This document shows positions 22,730-30,925 of a stretch of 37,131 bases of DNA, one piece after another; within the stretch, counting starts at the first letter, position 1, and each line of letters starts with the position of its first letter. The stretch is taken from assembly GCA_030038175.1 (NCBI GenBank), contig JASHPN010000306.1, positions 1-37,131 on the forward strand, given 5' to 3'. This DNA is from Verrucomicrobiia bacterium. GTDB taxonomy: Bacteria > Verrucomicrobiota > Verrucomicrobiia > Limisphaerales > UBA11358. Position numbers and translations under genes: made by a program. Under the pieces are notes generated by a model. The model made no database searches, was not told where the DNA came from, and was given only the letters and a program-made list of their open reading frames with translations.

Positions 22730-23209
22730 TTAGCAGCAGCATTTCTTTTCTTTTGTCTTTGGCGCCAGTTTGAACTGATACGGTTTATTGAGGTGGGGCG
22801 GCAGGCAGCGGTCTTCGGCCAGGCAGGCGGTGTGCTTAATACCAAGATGGAGCATTAAGGCGCCGCCATCGGTTTCAATCTTTTCGATCGGAAAATGGGA
22901 AATGAATGGCGCTTCGTGTTCGATGTCAACCTCAGGGTCTTCTTTTTCGAAAAATGACGCGGACTTTTCGAGAATGGCCGACAATTTGCCGGCCGTCAGC
23001 CGATGGTCAGTGTCATCCTGAAACCATGTTTGCAGGCGGCAGACGACATCGGTGCGGCGCGTTCCGCCGCAATCAATGTACTGCTTATCAATCCGGGCCA
23101 CTTCCGTGACATGGGCATGCGGGGGAATTTTGCTCCCGGTGGGCAGGGTGAAGCGAATGTTTTGCGAGGCATTTTTTGATAATATTCTTTTGAATTCAGA
23201 CAGTTTCAT
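22730..23209 (-). CDS. DUF6428 family protein, arsenic operon
   Basis: A 159-residue cytoplasmic protein that I recognise as DUF6428, often encoded in arsenic-resistance operons. The N-terminal '[10 protein letters not shown]' and '[20 protein letters not shown]' regions are family-typical. '[20 protein letters not shown]' and '[12 protein letters not shown]' hold conserved Cys. The protein ends in a triple-Cys tail (KKCCC) that could bind As(III) or another thiophilic metal (inference). It overlaps the end of the acr3 gene by 14 bases and precedes arsC by 10 bp, so it is clearly operonic. Confidence 0.8.
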
Positions 23210-24290
23210 AGGCTTTTGGCGTTTGGAATGGACGGCTGTACCAGCCGCGCGACTGGTTGCATAATTTGCAAACTGAAAGCATCACCGGAACCTCTACCAG
23301 CACCCCCACCACCGTCGCCAGCGCCGCCGGGGAATCTGCGCCGAACAGGGTGATGGCCACGGCCACGGCCAGCTCGAAGAAATTACTCGCCCCAATCAGG
23401 GAGCCGGGCGCGGCGATATTATGTTCCACGCGCAGAGTGCGCATGAGTAGATAGGTTATGGCGGAGTTAAAATACACCTGAACGATGATCGGCACGGCCA
23501 AAAGCAACACGGCGAACCATCGGGCGGTGAGGTTTTTTGATTGGAAAGCAAAAATTAAAATCAGCGTCAGCAGCAGTGCTCCGATCATGATGGGATGGAA
23601 TTTTGGCAGAAAATGCGTCTCAAACCATTCTTTGCCGCGGAATTTCAACAAAACCGTCCGGGTCAGCCAGCCGGCCGCCAAGGGAATGACGATGAATACG
23701 ATCACCGACGTGATCAGCACCTGGGCAGGAACGATTACGTGCGCAACACCGCAAAGGAACATGACCATCGGCGCGAACGCCACGAGCATAATAAGGTCGT
23801 TCATCGCGACCTGAACCAGGGTATAGGCCGGATCGCCGTCCGTCAGGTAACTCCACACAAAAACCATGGCGGTGCATGGCGCCGCGGCGAGAATGATCAG
23901 TCCGGCGGTGTAGCCTTTCGCCGTTTCCGGCCCAACCCAGTTCGCGAAAATATGCTGCATGAAAAGCCAGGCAAGAAATGCCATGGTGAACGGCTTGACG
24001 AGCCAATTGACAATGAACGTGACCGCCAATCCCGCCGGTCTTCGCGCAATCCCGCCAATGGCGCTGAAATCCACCTTCAGCATCATTGGATAAATCATCA
24101 GCCAGAGAAGAACTCCGATGGGAATATTGACCTGCGAACCTTGCCCAAACTGCATGCGGCTCAATGACGCGGTCAGGGCGGGAAGGCATTTGCCCAGCAG
24201 CACGCCGGCGACCATGCAGAGAAAAACCCAGAGGGTCAGGTAACGCTCAAAAGGGCCGAGTCGCCTTTTGGTTTTTGTTTCTTCGTTCAT
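23196..24290 (-). CDS. acr3: ACR3-family arsenite efflux permease
   Basis: 364 residues from the ATG at 24290. The upstream in-frame ATG (24320) overlaps the -10 box of the deduced promoter, so it cannot be the start. It exports As(OH)3 driven by membrane potential. About ten membrane segments are visible. The conserved segment 'LILAAAPCTAMVFVWSYLTDGDPAYTLVQVAMND' (paraphrased by its core AAPCTAMVFVWS) contains the essential Cys, and 'GASNFFELAVAVAITLFG' is a second hallmark. Length is slightly above bacterial ACR3 (about 350). It is the first gene of the three-gene operon divergent from arsR. Confidence 0.94.
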   Translation of the reverse strand: MNEETKTKRRLGPFERYLTLWVFLCMVAGVLLGKCLPALTASLSRMQFGQGSQVNIPIGVLLWLMIYPMMLKVDFSAIGGIARRPAGLAVTFIVNWLVKPFTMAFLAWLFMQHIFANWVGPETAKGYTAGLIILAAAPCTAMVFVWSYLTDGDPAYTLVQVAMNDLIMLVAFAPMVMFLCGVAHVIVPAQVLITSVIVFIVIPLAAGWLTRTVLLKFRGKEWFETHFLPKFHPIMIGALLLTLILIFAFQSKNLTARWFAVLLLAVPIIVQVYFNSAITYLLMRTLRVEHNIAAPGSLIGASNFFELAVAVAITLFGADSPAALATVVGVLVEVPVMLSVCKLCNQSRGWYSRPFQTPKAYETV

Positions 24291-24298
24291 GCCGGAAC

Positions 24299-24355
24299 GC
24301 ATACGCGAATCCGTATGCATGATAGGCTTGTTTTCGTATATGTCAACACGTATAT
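24299..24355. promoter_or_regulatory. Divergent ars promoters and ArsR operator sites
   Basis: On the minus strand TTGACA (24346-24341), a 16-bp spacer and TATCAT (24324-24319) form a promoter for acr3. On the plus strand TTGTTT (24328-24333), 17 bp and TATATA (24351-24356) would drive arsR with almost no leader. A perfect palindrome GCATACG-CGAATC-CGTATGC (24299-24318) lies at the acr3 start site. CGTATAT occurs twice more (24335-24341, 24349-24355) around the -35, giving four CGTAT half-sites. Confidence 0.65.
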
Positions 24356-24364
24356 ATTAATTGG

Positions 24365-24697
24365 ATGCGTGACTTTGCCTTGTTTTTCGCGGCGCTTTCG
24401 GACGAAACCCGATTGCGCCTGTTGAGCCTGATCCGGAGCCGCGAGGTGTGCGTCTGCTATTTGCAGGAAGTGTTAAATACGAACCAGCCGAAGATTTCGC
24501 GCCATCTGGCCTATCTCAAGAAGGCCGGGTTGGTGAAGGGGCGGCGTGACGGCAAATGGACGCACTATCGCCTGGCGAAACTGGACGGCGAACGAAAAAG
24601 GCTATTGTTCGAAACCTTGGATTGCGTCGGTCGGGAAACGCAGATTGCAAAAGATTATCAACGACTGCAAAACGTTAATTGCGAGCGCGGGATTTGA
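24365..24697 (+). CDS. arsR: ArsR-family arsenic-responsive repressor
   Basis: A 110-residue winged-helix repressor that releases DNA on binding As(III). The helix-turn-helix segment is 'QPKISRHLAYLKKAGLVKGRRDGKWTHY' (in part). The metal-sensing motif is 'SREVCVCYLQEVL', with the CxC pair at about residues 29-31, matching the ELCVCDL motif of E. coli ArsR. The N-terminus 'FFAALSDETRLRLL' is standard. Deduced promoter spacing implies a nearly leaderless transcript. It is divergent from acr3-DUF6428-arsC and its stop codon lies in the loop of a 9-bp hairpin. Confidence 0.94.
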   Translation: MRDFALFFAALSDETRLRLLSLIRSREVCVCYLQEVLNTNQPKISRHLAYLKKAGLVKGRRDGKWTHYRLAKLDGERKRLLFETLDCVGRETQIAKDYQRLQNVNCERGI

Positions 24698-25241: not shown

Positions 25242-25292
25242 GTGGAAAATTCATGCTTTTTGCCGGGGATTGCGGCAAAATGCGGAGTTGAC

Positions 25293-25405
25293 ATGAAACC
25301 GGTACTGGAAAATTCAAATTTTAAGATCCAGCGGGGAACGCGGGCAGCATCGGGCGATTCCGGCGACGACGCGCCGGGCAAAATGTCATTGTTGAATGCA
25401 GCCGG
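25293..25405 (+). pseudogene. Decayed 5' copy of the ABC ATPase gene at 26633
   Basis: Starting at the ATG, the first 44 bases match the intact gene at all but a few positions (both begin ATGAAACCGGTACTGGAAA). After an internal deletion of about 35-40 bases the match resumes at CGCGGGCAGCAT and GGGCGATTC, and runs through the former Walker A region (CGGGCAAAA) with a 1-base loss. About 45 bases upstream also resemble the intact gene's leader. The frame now fuses into the calpain-like gene's 5' extension, which is why I reject that long start. Confidence 0.7.
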
Positions 25406-25424
25406 CAGAAGTAGATTTAGTTCA

Positions 25425-26561
25425 ATGAAATCCCGGGTTGTCAGAATGACGGTTACGCTTCTCGTGACTTGTATTTTTTCCAGGACGCTGGTGTGTTTTG
25501 GGGAAAATATTCCAGGTTTTCGCCAAATTGTCGCCGCTGATTTTGCGCGGTGGGACAGTAATCATGACGGCGAATTAAGTCCCGGCGAAATCAACGCATT
25601 GATTGAAAATCCGCAAGTGAAAGGCGAGGAAGCCGCCGCCGTGGTCGTGATCAGAAACATTTTCTCCAAAAGCAAAAGGGTGGACACGTCTAAAAGACTA
25701 AGTCGTGACCAGCTTCTGGGATTTGCGGAAGATCCGTCGGTGGAAAACTGGTTTTACTGGAACAGCGAGGAAATCAACTCGTGCAATCACGCGCTTTTTC
25801 TTCCGGGAGATCCGAATCTGAAAACGGTTCAGCAAGGTCAAACGGGTGATTGTTATTTGATTGCCGTGATTGGCGCGCTGGTCAATAGCCGACCGCAGGA
25901 CGTTCAAAATATGATCAAACCCCTGCCGAATAATTCGTTCGAAGTGGACTTTCCGGACGGCACAAAATCTGTGGTTGCGGGCGCGACCGACGCGGAATTA
26001 ATTCAAGGAGCAAAAGTGGCTGAAGACCATGGCATCTGGCTGGATATTCTGGAAAAGGCCTTTGCCGAAACGCGGTTTGGCAACAATCCATCGGCGAATG
26101 GCGGAGCAGCGGAAGTTCCAACGGCTGAAGTGCCGAGAGATATTCTTTCGGGCGGAAAGACACCGCGATCGATTGAGCGATTTACCGGCCATAAAGTCGT
26201 TACCCTCCGGCTGGACCAGGCAAATGGAAACAACGCGCGGCCGACAGTCCGGCAAATTCGTGATTTATTGCTCCGGCTCACTCGAGAGCATCGTGTCATC
26301 ACGGCAGGAGCATTAACAAGAGACATTAAATTGCCGCCCGGATTGGTACGAAGGCATTGCTGGGCTGTCGTCGGGTACGAACCCAATTCACAATTGATTC
26401 GCATATTCAATCCATGGGGCAATGAATTCGAACCAAAGGGAACGCCCGGGCTTGCCAATGGCTATGCGGTCCATCATGGTGTATTTGCGATGCCTCTCCG
26501 GGAATTTATTCAGGAATATCGAATATTGAACTACGAGACCGACGAGCCACTGAACGGTTAA
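25425..26561 (+). CDS. Secreted EF-hand/calpain-like (C2) cysteine protease
   Basis: 378 residues from the ATG at 25425, which gives a signal peptide (about 1-26, 'RMTVTLLVTCIFSRTLVCFG'). Longer in-frame starts at 25242/25293 only add the ABC-gene relic. An EF-hand-like loop 'DSNHDGELSPGE' (residues 44-55) precedes a calpain-type catalytic domain. The Cys is C143 in 'QQGQTGDCYLIA', His is H311 in 'RRHCWAVVGY', and Asn is N329 in 'IFNPWGNEF'. All three catalytic positions are intact. Calcium binding is suggested by the EF-hand but not shown. Secreted bacterial calpain-like proteases are poorly characterised. It precedes the ABC ATPase gene by 71 bp on the same strand. Confidence 0.85.
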   Translation: MKSRVVRMTVTLLVTCIFSRTLVCFGENIPGFRQIVAADFARWDSNHDGELSPGEINALIENPQVKGEEAAAVVVIRNIFSKSKRVDTSKRLSRDQLLGFAEDPSVENWFYWNSEEINSCNHALFLPGDPNLKTVQQGQTGDCYLIAVIGALVNSRPQDVQNMIKPLPNNSFEVDFPDGTKSVVAGATDAELIQGAKVAEDHGIWLDILEKAFAETRFGNNPSANGGAAEVPTAEVPRDILSGGKTPRSIERFTGHKVVTLRLDQANGNNARPTVRQIRDLLLRLTREHRVITAGALTRDIKLPPGLVRRHCWAVVGYEPNSQLIRIFNPWGNEFEPKGTPGLANGYAVHHGVFAMPLREFIQEYRILNYETDEPLNG

Positions 26562-28154: not shown

Positions 28155-28715
28155 CTAACGGGCTTCCGCGCCAATCGAAACGCCTTCGATTTCAAGGAGT
28201 TTGCATTTCCAGCCGAGGCCGCTGGAAAAGCCGCCGATTTTGTTATTGGCGGCCAGGACGCGGTGGCAGGGCACAAATACCGGAATATGATTTGCGCCAC
28301 AGGCAGCGCCGACAGCGCGAACGGCTTTGGGATTGCCAATCGCTTTCGCAATCTCGCCATAGCTTTTGGTTTTGCCGAAAGGGATTTTGAGCATTTCGCG
28401 CCAGACGCTCTTTTGAAATTCCGTGCCGTCCAGGTCCAGTGGGGGCAATAGGCCGGGCGATTTTCCGGAAATTATTTTTGCAAGGGCGGTTTGGGTGACT
28501 CGATGCCAGGCGCGAAGGTCGGTCGGGATTTCGGGGGCGCGGCATTCATGCTGCTTCCGCGTCCCTTCGGTATCGGACGTTGAAGCGGCCTGAAGGCCGC
28601 GCCCCGGTTCCGGGCGCACGGGCAGGTTCAACTCCGCAAGGCCGTATTTGCTGTAAAAGGCGACGAAGGTTCCGAGCGGGGTGGCGATGGGAAGTTGAGT
28701 CAGCGGGCGAGGCAT
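28155..28715 (-). CDS. ogt: Methylated-DNA-[protein]-cysteine S-methyltransferase
   Basis: A 186-residue O6-alkylguanine-DNA alkyltransferase that repairs alkylated bases by suicidal transfer to Cys150 in 'PCHRV'. The DNA-binding helix region 'SYGEIAKAIGNPKAVRAVG' and 'FQKSVWREMLKIPFGKT' are canonical. A segment at about residues 34-62 ('RPEPGRGLQAASTSDTEG' and following) is extra compared with the family. It coincides with a dispersed DNA repeat at 28573-28606, so a REP-like element appears to be inserted in frame within the N-terminal domain. The gene starts 6 bp after the upstream membrane-protein gene, as the third member of an operon. Confidence 0.92.
   Translation of the reverse strand: MPRPLTQLPIATPLGTFVAFYSKYGLAELNLPVRPEPGRGLQAASTSDTEGTRKQHECRAPEIPTDLRAWHRVTQTALAKIISGKSPGLLPPLDLDGTEFQKSVWREMLKIPFGKTKSYGEIAKAIGNPKAVRAVGAACGANHIPVFVPCHRVLAANNKIGGFSSGLGWKCKLLEIEGVSIGAEAR
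28573..28606. repeat. REP-like repeat inside ogt coding sequence
   Basis: Copy of the repeat at 637-669; the hairpin GCGGCC-TGAA-GGCCGC is perfect here. It encodes about residues 37-48 of Ogt without breaking the frame. Confidence 0.7.
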
Positions 28716-28721
28716 AGAATG

Positions 28722-29249
28722 TCAGTGGTGGGTTGTGAAAAATAAAATGATGCCGAGCAGCAATAAAAACAAAACCGCGGTAAACAGAATGAAACGGTTC
28801 CGCGCCACGCGCTTTTCGTAGCGTAAAGGGCGCAGGCCGTGGACACCGCCGGCCGCCAGATAATTGACCAGGCGCGGATTGCTCGTCGTGGGCCGGCGAA
28901 ATTGGTCGCGCAGCTTTTGCAGCAAGCCTGGTAAATCGTATTTGCGAACGCCCAATTCGTTGAAGCGATCCGAAGGCTCCATTTCGGTCGTTGGTTTCAG
29001 CGGTTTGATTTCTTCAAACACAGGCTCGGCGGCAGGTGGTTTTGGCGGCGGGTCGTTCCTGCGGGACACGGTGTTTCCGTGGGGGATCGCCGTGGAGCGA
29101 AGCTTCGGCGCCGGGACCTTTTGGAGTTGCGAATCCAGCCGTTTGATTTCGGCTTCGAGCGTCGCAATTTGTTCGCTCAGGGCGCGCTCGCGATCGGAAA
29201 TCGGGTCCGCCGGCCCGCCCTTTTTCCCTTTGTTTTTCTCCGCCGCCAT
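28722..29249 (-). CDS. Tail-anchored coiled-coil membrane protein B (unknown family)
   Basis: 175 residues. A Lys/Gly-rich start (about 1-15) leads into a predicted coiled coil (about 19-44, 'RALSEQIATLEAEIKRLDSQL'). A Pro-rich linker follows (about 45-90, 'DPPPKPPAAEPVFEEIKPLKP'), then a basic region 'RNRF', then one C-terminal membrane helix (about 151-172, 'FILFTAVLFLLLLGIILFF') ending in 'TTHH'. There is no signal peptide, so the bulk is cytoplasmic with a C-terminal anchor. It lies 9 bp after gene A (29259-29912) and 6 bp before ogt. The A protein has the same architecture, suggesting a paired complex. I do not recognise a family. Confidence 0.7.
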   Translation of the reverse strand: MAAEKNKGKKGGPADPISDRERALSEQIATLEAEIKRLDSQLQKVPAPKLRSTAIPHGNTVSRRNDPPPKPPAAEPVFEEIKPLKPTTEMEPSDRFNELGVRKYDLPGLLQKLRDQFRRPTTSNPRLVNYLAAGGVHGLRPLRYEKRVARNRFILFTAVLFLLLLGIILFFTTHH

Positions 29250-29258
29250 AATCTTCGT

Positions 29259-29912
29259 TTAATGGCGCAACAGCAATGCGACCAGCAGGCCGATCAAGGC
29301 AAGCCCGACCGCCAGGACCGGCCAGGTCATCGCCAAACCGAATCTGCAAAGCTGGCCAAAGCTCAGACGGGTGAACGGCGTGTGCGTGGAAGGGGCTGGG
29401 GTTTCGGGGGCGGGTTTCTTCGCGTTCTCGCCGGCCAGCACGGGAATCTTCAACCGCGCCGAGTTCCATTCCATTCGCGCATTCTCGATGGCGGTGAGCG
29501 CGCGCGTCAGTTCGACGTTGAAATTTTCCCTGGTCCAGGCTTCTTCGTGGATGGTCTCAACTTTGCCCAATACGTCCCGGAAATCCGCGAGCGTTTTTTT
29601 CATTTGCTCGCTTTCACGGCGGGCGTTGAACTCTGCTTCTTCGAGCAGGCCCACGCCGCGCGTCAGATTTTGGATGATTTCCTGCCGGCCATTTTGAAAT
29701 TCAACCTGGCGCCGGCGCAATTCCTCCAGCGATGCGCGCTCACGTTCGAGTTCCTCCTGCGCCCGCTTGAGTTCAACCAGCTTTTGTTGCGCTTCCACCA
29801 CCTTGCGGTCCACTTCTTCGCGCGTCGGCGCGCGAAGCGAATCGCCGGCCGGCGTTTTGTGTGCGTGAAAATCGGTGTCAATAAATTCGGTGGCGTCGTA
29901 TTCAGCAGCCAT
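29259..29912 (-). CDS. Tail-anchored coiled-coil membrane protein A (unknown family)
   Basis: 217 residues. After an acidic N-terminus ('EYDATEFIDTDFHAHKTPAGD') comes a long coiled coil (about 32-115, e.g. 'KLVELKRAQEELERERASLE' and 'LRRRQVEFQNGRQEIIQNLT'). A helical segment to about 155 and a Pro-rich linker (about 160-180) follow. The C-terminal helix is about 190-214 ('TWPVLAVGLALIGLLVALLL') and ends 'RH'. It has no catalytic motif and no signal peptide. It is the first gene of the A-B-ogt operon. A structural or scaffolding role at the inner membrane is possible but not shown. Confidence 0.7.
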   Translation of the reverse strand: MAAEYDATEFIDTDFHAHKTPAGDSLRAPTREEVDRKVVEAQQKLVELKRAQEELERERASLEELRRRQVEFQNGRQEIIQNLTRGVGLLEEAEFNARRESEQMKKTLADFRDVLGKVETIHEEAWTRENFNVELTRALTAIENARMEWNSARLKIPVLAGENAKKPAPETPAPSTHTPFTRLSFGQLCRFGLAMTWPVLAVGLALIGLLVALLLRH

Positions 29913-30094: not shown

Positions 30095-30259
30095 ATGTTA
30101 ACTTGGACGGTCATATTTCTCATCGTTGCCCTGATCGCGGCGGTATTGGGTTTCACCGGCATAGCCGGAGCGGCGGTGGGTATCGCACGAATTCTGTTTA
30201 CCATTTTTCTCATCCTGTTCCTTGCCTCATTGATCCTTGGGCTGGTACGGGGGCATTAA
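30095..30259 (+). CDS. DUF1328 small membrane protein
   Basis: 54 residues, almost wholly hydrophobic, with two membrane helices separated by '[14 protein letters not shown]'. The start '[20 protein letters not shown]' with Gly/Ala-rich centre and '...LVRGH' end is the DUF1328 (YtjA-like) family pattern. AAAGGAG lies 6 nt before the ATG; a longer upstream frame was rejected. Members are often stress-induced in other bacteria (family knowledge). It is followed 16 bp later by another small membrane gene, so the two are probably co-transcribed. Confidence 0.85.
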
Positions 30260-30275
30260 CCAAAGGACAAAGATT

Positions 30276-30479
30276 ATGAATAAAGCAATTGGACTGGCGT
30301 TATTGGCGGTAGGCATCGCGTTAATCATTTACGGTATTGATGCCTCCAACTCGGCAAGCTCGGCAATTTCGAGGACTTTCACGGGATCGCCAACAAATAA
30401 AACCCTTTGGCTGTTGCTGGGGGGCATTGCATCCGCCATTTGTGGGCTGGTGTTGACGTCTGTGCCGTCGAGACGATAA
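30276..30479 (+). CDS. DUF3185 small membrane protein
   Basis: 67 residues with two membrane helices. The first has 'GLALLAVGIALIIYGIDASN', and 'SAISRTFTGSPTNKT' is the conserved polar loop. The second is 'LWLLLGGIASAICGLVL'. This matches the DUF3185 family. AGGA precedes the ATG by about 9 nt. It forms a likely two-gene operon with the DUF1328 gene. The function of the family is unknown; the pairing suggests an envelope-stress role (inference). Confidence 0.8.
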   Translation: MNKAIGLALLAVGIALIIYGIDASNSASSAISRTFTGSPTNKTLWLLLGGIASAICGLVLTSVPSRR

Positions 30480-30498: not shown

Positions 30499-30804
30499 TT
30501 AAGTCTTGGCCCGCCAATCAGTTTTGGCGAGGCCGAATTTTTGGGTCAATCCCTTTAAAAAATCGAAGGAATCAGCGTTTAAGCGCGCCCGCCACCATAC
30601 TTCGCAGGTCATTTCATTTAGCGTCGCATTCTCGTCCAATGTCACCGAGGAGGATCGAATTCGGTATCCCGCCGACATTATAAAATTTATGATTTCGATT
30701 TCCTTCGGAGGATTCGGGCCGGCGACGATGAGCAACGTGGCCTGGTGATGTTGTTTGATGCTTTTTTCCACGTATTTGGGTCCTGCCAAAATGAACATTC
30801 CCAA
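30499..30804 (-). pseudogene. Truncated MgtC/SapB-like C-terminal domain
   Basis: About 100 residues beginning near 'MFILAGPKYVEKSIKQHHQ'. The sequence looks like the linker and cytoplasmic C-terminal domain of MgtC/SapB-type membrane proteins ('EIINFIMSAGYRIRSSSVTL', 'TCEVWWRARLNADSFDFLKG', ending 'AKTDWR'). The expected N-terminal membrane helices are missing. Directly upstream lies a palindromic repeat (30809-30859) through which the frame would read. Either the repeat truncated the gene, or a short stand-alone protein starts at TTG 30804 or ATG 30798. Family assignment is tentative. Confidence 0.45.
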
Positions 30805-30806
30805 TT

Positions 30807-30880
30807 CTCCCTCTCCCAGCCTGCCGCGCCGAAGCCTGGCGAAGGCGGGCGGGAGAGGGCAGGGGTGAGGGCGAGCCGTT
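30807..30880. repeat. GGGAGAGGG-type intergenic palindrome
   Basis: CCCTCTCCC (30809-30817) pairs with GGGAGAGGG (30851-30859). The inner bases AGCCTGCCGCGCC and GGCGAAGGCGGGC form a second stem. Such elements are common between bacterial genes. Here one sits exactly at the broken 5' edge of the MgtC-like fragment. Confidence 0.65.
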
Positions 30881-30925
30881 CCAACAAAAACGCCGTCCGT
30901 CTCGCAATCTACTTGCCAATCTTCG

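Follow-up and report, generated by a model that had tools for sequence, protein, structure and literature searches.

ZipA and EzrA are bitopic proteins that tether FtsZ to the membrane and carry their membrane helix at the N-terminus. FtsL and FtsB (DivIC) have a short cytoplasmic N-terminus, a membrane helix near it and a coiled coil in the periplasm. A third type is represented by ElaB and YqjD, which we take to be of the DUF883 type and of which YqjD is linked to ribosomes. ElaB is described as a C-tail-anchored inner-membrane protein of Escherichia coli (PMC6389858). Among the Verrucomicrobiota, an annotated ftsB is listed for Verrucomicrobium spinosum (PMC12283558, Table 1), and FtsE, FtsX and MinCDE were possibly lost at the PVC ancestor, according to the relevant part of PMC2474590. 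The dcw clusters described for this phylum comprise, in the main-text parts of the respective papers, only classical genes (PMC1845146, PMC12283558). A review of PVC division (PMC5147048) does not use the words hypothetical, coiled, tail-anchored or unknown function, nor the names Pedosphaera and Kiritimatiella, and the PVC signature paper names, in its available parts, one small signature protein, CT421.2 (PMC3444138).

Here, we describe two small genes, A and B, that lie directly before ogt and that compare with these systems as follows. A and B resemble ZipA and EzrA in being bitopic, with a long, presumably cytoplasmic part that could hold a partner away from the membrane. They are anchored at the C-terminus, however, which sets them apart from the general description of ZipA and EzrA, and neither family is among the matches listed for A and B. 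With FtsL and FtsB they share the character of two small, bitopic, division-linked coiled-coil proteins that are possibly paired. In A, by contrast, the coil precedes a C-terminal hydrophobic helix rather than following an N-terminal one; a simple test found this helix, with a tail of 0-12 residues behind it, in 81/81 A proteins, while the same kind of test found a C-terminal membrane helix in 33 of 595 other ORFs (60-260 aa) of the same loci. The only FtsL-like family match for A or B was a sub-threshold one to ftsL_broad (E 0.46). The C-terminal membrane anchor of ElaB and YqjD is present in both A and B, but a match to the ElaB/YqjD sequence family is found neither for A and B of the window (among matches up to E 1) nor among the matches of 41 A members (E 0.001) and 31 B members (E 0.01). 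To our knowledge, ElaB and YqjD are not described as forming a conserved two-gene unit close to dcw genes. The described dcw clusters of Verrucomicrobiota have ftsQ, ftsA and ftsZ in the same order as loci presented below, but their main-text descriptions mention neither A and B nor a LysM-TPR protein nor ogt (PMC1845146, PMC12283558).

The window, that is, the whole stretch of 37,131 nucleotides analyzed here, is an entire 37-kb contig of a 5.4-Mb draft genome. The three genes are separated by 9 bp (A-B) and 6 bp (B-ogt); an earlier sequence-only reading had given these gaps and the gene coordinates exactly. The features are as follows:

29259..29912, minus strand: gene A, a 217-aa tail-anchored coiled-coil protein
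28722..29249, minus strand: gene B, a 175-aa tail-anchored protein
28155..28715, minus strand: ogt, O6-methylguanine-DNA methyltransferase, 186 aa, third gene of the operon
29871..29888, minus strand: A residues 9-14, acidic-aromatic N-terminal motif EFIDTD
29556..29822, minus strand: A residues 31-119, one long predicted helix (AlphaFold2)
29436..29522, minus strand: A residues 131-159, predicted helix folded back on the rod (AlphaFold2)
29265..29360, minus strand: A residues 185-216, C-terminal membrane helix with a G-x5-P motif
29121..29204, minus strand: B residues 16-43, short predicted helix (coiled coil; AlphaFold2)
28794..28880, minus strand: B residues 124-152, conserved basic juxtamembrane block NPRLVNYLAAGGVHGLRPLRYEKRVARNR
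28731..28793, minus strand: B residues 153-173, C-terminal membrane helix
29919..29947, minus strand: promoter-like site directly upstream of A, by consensus match only

The promoter-like site is a weak candidate, since the region contains four such sites where shuffled sequence would give 1.2. The Ogt protein is an ordinary member of its family, matching PF01035 (Pfam, E 1.6e-33) and TIGR00589 (NCBIfam, E 1.2e-31) and containing the motif PCHRV. Elsewhere in the window, two small tandem proteins with DUF1328 and DUF3185 (30095-30479, plus strand) are divergent from gene A, and positions 30800-30890 hold a dispersed repeat of the CCCTCTCCC...GGGAGAGGG type with 41 matches in the genome, including itself. 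A bacterial protein with a calpain-family cysteine protease domain (PF00648), preceded by an EF-hand-like stretch recognized by eye, is encoded at 25242-26561 (plus strand). At 23196-24697, a PF01758-family transporter is divergent from an ArsR-type regulator, perhaps an arsenite-efflux arrangement.

The AlphaFold2 model of A has a mean pLDDT of 82 and a pTM of 0.42. Its rod helix (residues 31-119; block means of pLDDT at least 90) comprises 89 residues and would by arithmetic measure ~13 nm if straight. Between a low-confidence linker (pLDDT <50 at 165-177) and the C-terminus, the model places the hydrophobic helix 185-216, which in A frequently ends in basic residues. The model of B (mean pLDDT 70, pTM 0.24) contains helices at 16-43 and 143-174 and a middle part of low confidence; the protein starts with an MxxxKKK-type end followed by the short helix and finishes with the block NPRLVNYLAAGGVHGLRPLRYEKRVARNR and a hydrophobic helix. 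Two coiled-coil proteins of the same plan, both with a membrane helix ending in His, had been proposed from the sequence. The long helix 31-119 agrees with this for A, while the coil of B is short (~28 residues). Both proteins do end in a membrane helix and share an architecture, but no homology between them is detectable (hhalign probability 1.2%), nor is there support for an internal duplication within either one. The terminal His is incidental and not conserved, as the last residues of relatives vary (RR, RK, KR, NN and others).

The motif [DEN]F[VIFY][DEN]x[DEN] near the start of A is present in 77/79 A proteins of the order (EFVDTD and similar) and in 14 of the 41 rows of a diverse set, in which G192 is invariant and F111, W126, L135 and P198 are nearly so. 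In B, 13 of the 18 invariant columns fall within the basic juxtamembrane block 124-152, and in many distant genomes the profile match is limited to this block and the helix. Columns of the distant B set have a mean identity of 18%. Over 61 loci, median identity to the window is 67% for A, 54% for B and 51% for Ogt. A is thus more conserved than the adjacent enzyme, and in a largely helical rod this suggests a binding surface. According to the positive-inside rule, basic residues flank the cytoplasmic side of a membrane helix, and the basic block before the membrane helix of B therefore argues for a cytoplasmic N-terminus. The topology of A, whose helix is flanked by basic residues at either end, is less clear.

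As anticipated from the sequence, the two proteins are unrecognized: neither A nor B has a significant match in Pfam or NCBIfam, and no convincing relative among PDB sequences was found for either (matches with B begin only at E 0.027 and are designed coiled coils). Foldseek with the A model gave no match at E 0.001 or better. VIA-align returned Z values of up to 7.6, over residues ~76-168 only and of a kind common for helical models, so that A cannot be called free of a known fold; none of its fold matches points to a partner. Matches to GrpE, OmpH, Mis12, Nuf2-like proteins, spectrin and Mediator were rejected because they are weak, scattered and located in coiled-coil stretches. An SMC or Rad50 identity was likewise rejected. 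A of the window aligns with SMC, Rad50 and ASRP models over inner stretches only, at 9-13 bits versus cut-offs of 300-1000, and the matches among 41 A members (the SMC-related ASRP in 11, Rad50 in 10; best E 7.6e-6) look like coiled-coil noise; A has little beyond its coil and tail helix and lacks an ATPase head with Walker motifs. A role in chromosome positioning, also suggested by the sequence-only reading, was dropped as a general link, since these matches look like noise and ParB near A-B is confined to four loci of a single family (L120-L122, L155). The literature searches brought up no published account of either protein.

Across the order, 59 genomes were searched, the window's own among them; 54 have A, these same 54 have B, and they cover 22/24 genera. 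In a sample of 41 loci, made up of the window, 20 further loci of its genus and 20 from other families of the order, A always lies beside B on the same strand, at a distance of 1-115 nt (41/41). B also follows A in 79 of 80 named loci (L156-L235, kept of 227), the exception ending 401 nt after A; the three counts are not independent, since L156-L235 share contigs with some of the genomes (e.g., L156 and G025:C395). The five genomes without A and B (G022, G026, G033, G044, G051) were also negative with a deeper A profile. Two of them, G026 and G033, belong to the window's own genus and are 95 and 94% complete, so the absence there may be real.

Within the phylum, the order-level A profile matched 133 of 387 genomes (at least 85% complete, E 0.001 or better). 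A diverse A profile matched 188/387 (E 0.001 or better) and added genus g26, with genomes of 2.2-3.5 Mb; weak matches to the A5 profile (E >1e-5) are those of G122, G139, G172, G237, G243, G348 and G400, and weak order-profile matches in G310, G330, G407 and G443 are absent from the diverse-profile matches. The order-level B profile matched 40 of the 387 genomes, 35 of them beside an A match, with weak matches away from A in G068, G157 and G206. A small tail-anchored ORF, down to 61-69 residues in length, stands directly after A in 38/40 distant loci and in 20/20 further ones; because the profile reaches so few genomes, position and tail anchor are the main grounds for identifying B in the distant ones. 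A occurs without a B candidate in L117 and L118, and B without a detectable A in L289 (G367) and L290 (G402), where it directly follows a LysM-TPR gene. In a 0.9-Mb genome, two A-match pieces in short frames (G094:C1:775706-776071) are probably a remnant, and the congener G115 has no A match. A-B is a conserved two-gene unit through the order and beyond. The proposal of an undescribed paired membrane protein system, which would have fallen had A and B failed to co-occur or belonged to known families, is borne out by this neighborhood comparison, though the four loci with a single gene show that pairing is not absolute. The unit is common but dispensable in some lineages and would thus resemble an accessory adaptor rather than a core part of the divisome.

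A neighborhood of division and cell-wall genes was found in another class, where locus L127 reads LysM-TPR protein, A, B, ogt, MurG, Mur ligase (taken as MurC), Ddl, FtsQ, FtsA and FtsZ. Apart from A and B, these genes were identified by Pfam domains, and the TPR+LysM protein has, by eye, a lipoprotein-like start. In other classes, the order-level profile gave 98 genomes with A, of which we examined 80 (74 better matches and 6 weaker ones), assessing closeness to A by eye across the 80 and then by computation for the 23 close ones. In 19/80, from six families, A is followed at 1155-2890 nt by a MurG-type match (PF04101) on the same strand, compared with a rough chance estimate of 0.04 of 80 (arithmetic for 3 kb, one strand and a ~3-Mb genome). 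An Ogt match 685-840 nt after the A match is present in 18/80, from eight families, and 14/80 have both genes close after A. Searches with the L127 proteins served to read 18 of these 19 loci: a B candidate stands between A and MurG in 18/18, and MurG was recovered in 18, MurC in 16, Ogt in 13, Ddl, FtsQ and FtsA in 12 and FtsZ in 10, with a LysM-TPR protein upstream in 16; some stretches end early. L140, L257 and L266 show no fts genes despite 9-11 kb of room. In 61/80 genomes, many of them drafts, MurG is not close to A. In the window's own genome, A-B is not beside the mur-fts genes, and the best MurG match is on a different contig (C236); elsewhere in the window's class, the neighbors of A-B are gatC/gatA-like in some cases and pyruvate-dehydrogenase-like in others (by eye).

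Further neighbors recur in particular sets of loci. In other classes, a TPR+LysM protein is encoded directly upstream of A in L127, L132-L134, L136, L137, L140 and L150. A permease cluster (PF16949 in L067) stands immediately before A, or almost so, in L062, L067, L073-L075 and L128-L130, and a metallo-beta-lactamase-fold hydrolase (PF00753 in L154) comes right after a B of 67-69 aa in L152-L154.

Based on these associations, we posit that A-B is a membrane adaptor pair serving the division and peptidoglycan-synthesis machinery of Verrucomicrobiota. This is our best guess, with a probability of roughly 0.42, and it draws on the position before murG, the LysM-TPR neighbor, the conserved rod and the paired tail anchors. 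A and B would be inserted tail-first with their N-terminal parts in the cytoplasm and would associate as a pair at the membrane. The A rod could then keep a partner off the membrane by means of its conserved helix surface and the acidic-aromatic N-terminal motif, and this partner might belong to the cytoplasmic or peripheral part of the machinery, as MurG and FtsZ/FtsA do. The TPR+LysM protein may be a third partner. As for ogt, it may have been carried along in the operon since early on or be co-regulated with the other genes. The adaptor reading is weakened by its basis in association: MurG is not near A in most of the other-class genomes examined, FtsZ occurs where A does not (22/22 genomes without detected A, 21 of them over the cut-off and including G026 and G033), each gene is sometimes found alone, and the 0.9-Mb genome retains only pieces of A.

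A competing, somewhat unlikely explanation is that A-B acts with the LysM-TPR protein as a general scaffold of the envelope or membrane, involved in organization or stress, and that its position in the dcw cluster is an accident of lineage. The neighbors of A-B do vary outside the dcw lineages. The LysM-TPR gene is directly upstream without dcw genes in view in L132, L133 and L137, lies 3-4 kb upstream in L067, L073 and L078, and remains beside B where A is missing (L289, L290), which suggests a three-gene set and keeps this explanation alive; the cluster-c11 permease upstream of A at several loci would fit it as well. An accident of lineage, however, accounts poorly for a position before murG that recurs in six families, with a run extending to FtsZ in 10/18 loci.

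The second alternative gives ogt the central role: the operon would couple alkylation repair to division, with Ogt repairing O6-methylguanine while membrane-bound A-B would brake or time division in response to damage. In the order, ogt lies downstream of A-B in 32/41 loci (21/21 of the same genus, including the window, and 11/20 others), counting ORFs of at least 80 aa, so that L078 was scored as lacking it although a 61-aa ogt-like ORF follows B. It also follows A-B in 61/80 named loci, five of the 19 misses having <1.2 kb of contig left, and lies 685-840 nt after the A match in 18/80 other-class genomes. When 51 Ogt proteins were placed in a tree, the 36 linked to A-B and the 15 unlinked ones were largely separate, with 4 label changes versus a shuffled mean of 13.2 (0/500 shuffles as low), and the 19 order-level linked Ogts group together (95/97); row L274 was left out of this tree, in which many branchings are uncertain and bootstrap values had not converged. 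The pattern would be consistent with a single origin of all A-B-linked Ogts, but a constraint holding the unlinked Ogts together was not rejected (p-AU 0.132). Many genomes, moreover, keep A-B without an adjacent ogt. MurG follows A-B with no ogt in between in G148, G153, G291, G322 and G352, and in G153, G291 and G322 Ogt is encoded away from A-B and falls into a separate group of the tree. These gene orders would fit an ancient A-B-ogt-murG operon with later losses. The possible link to DNA damage raised by the sequence-only reading comes down to the adjacency of ogt, and the division and cell-wall cluster is the stronger context for A-B; we consider a repair-division coupling clearly unlikely. 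It is quite improbable, too, that A-B is an adaptor particular to Verrucomicrobiota which ancestrally shared one operon with the repair enzyme and the mur-fts genes and thereby tied division or wall synthesis to alkylation damage in a group described as having lost Min and FtsEX.

Similarly doubtful is a role like that of ElaB and YqjD, in which A-B would tether ribosomes or other cytoplasmic particles during slow growth. The topology class is the same and the C-terminal helix of A often has a basic end, but the lack of a family match speaks against this, and neither the pairing of the genes nor their location in the dcw cluster would be explained. That A and B are fast-evolving or chance ORFs with no common function, as the lack of family matches and the opposite-strand ORFs overlapping both genes might suggest, is hardly credible given their conservation over the order and beyond and their near-constant adjacency.

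If the adaptor reading holds, it would bear on a question for which the PVC bacteria are a main testing ground, namely how division changed or came to do without FtsZ. With FtsE, FtsX and MinCDE possibly lost in this lineage, uncharacterized membrane proteins whose genes adjoin murG and the fts genes suggest themselves as stand-in adaptors. Targeted deletion is established in V. spinosum (PMC12283558) and makes the idea testable if that species has A-B. The pair may thus be an overlooked part of envelope building or division in Verrucomicrobiota.
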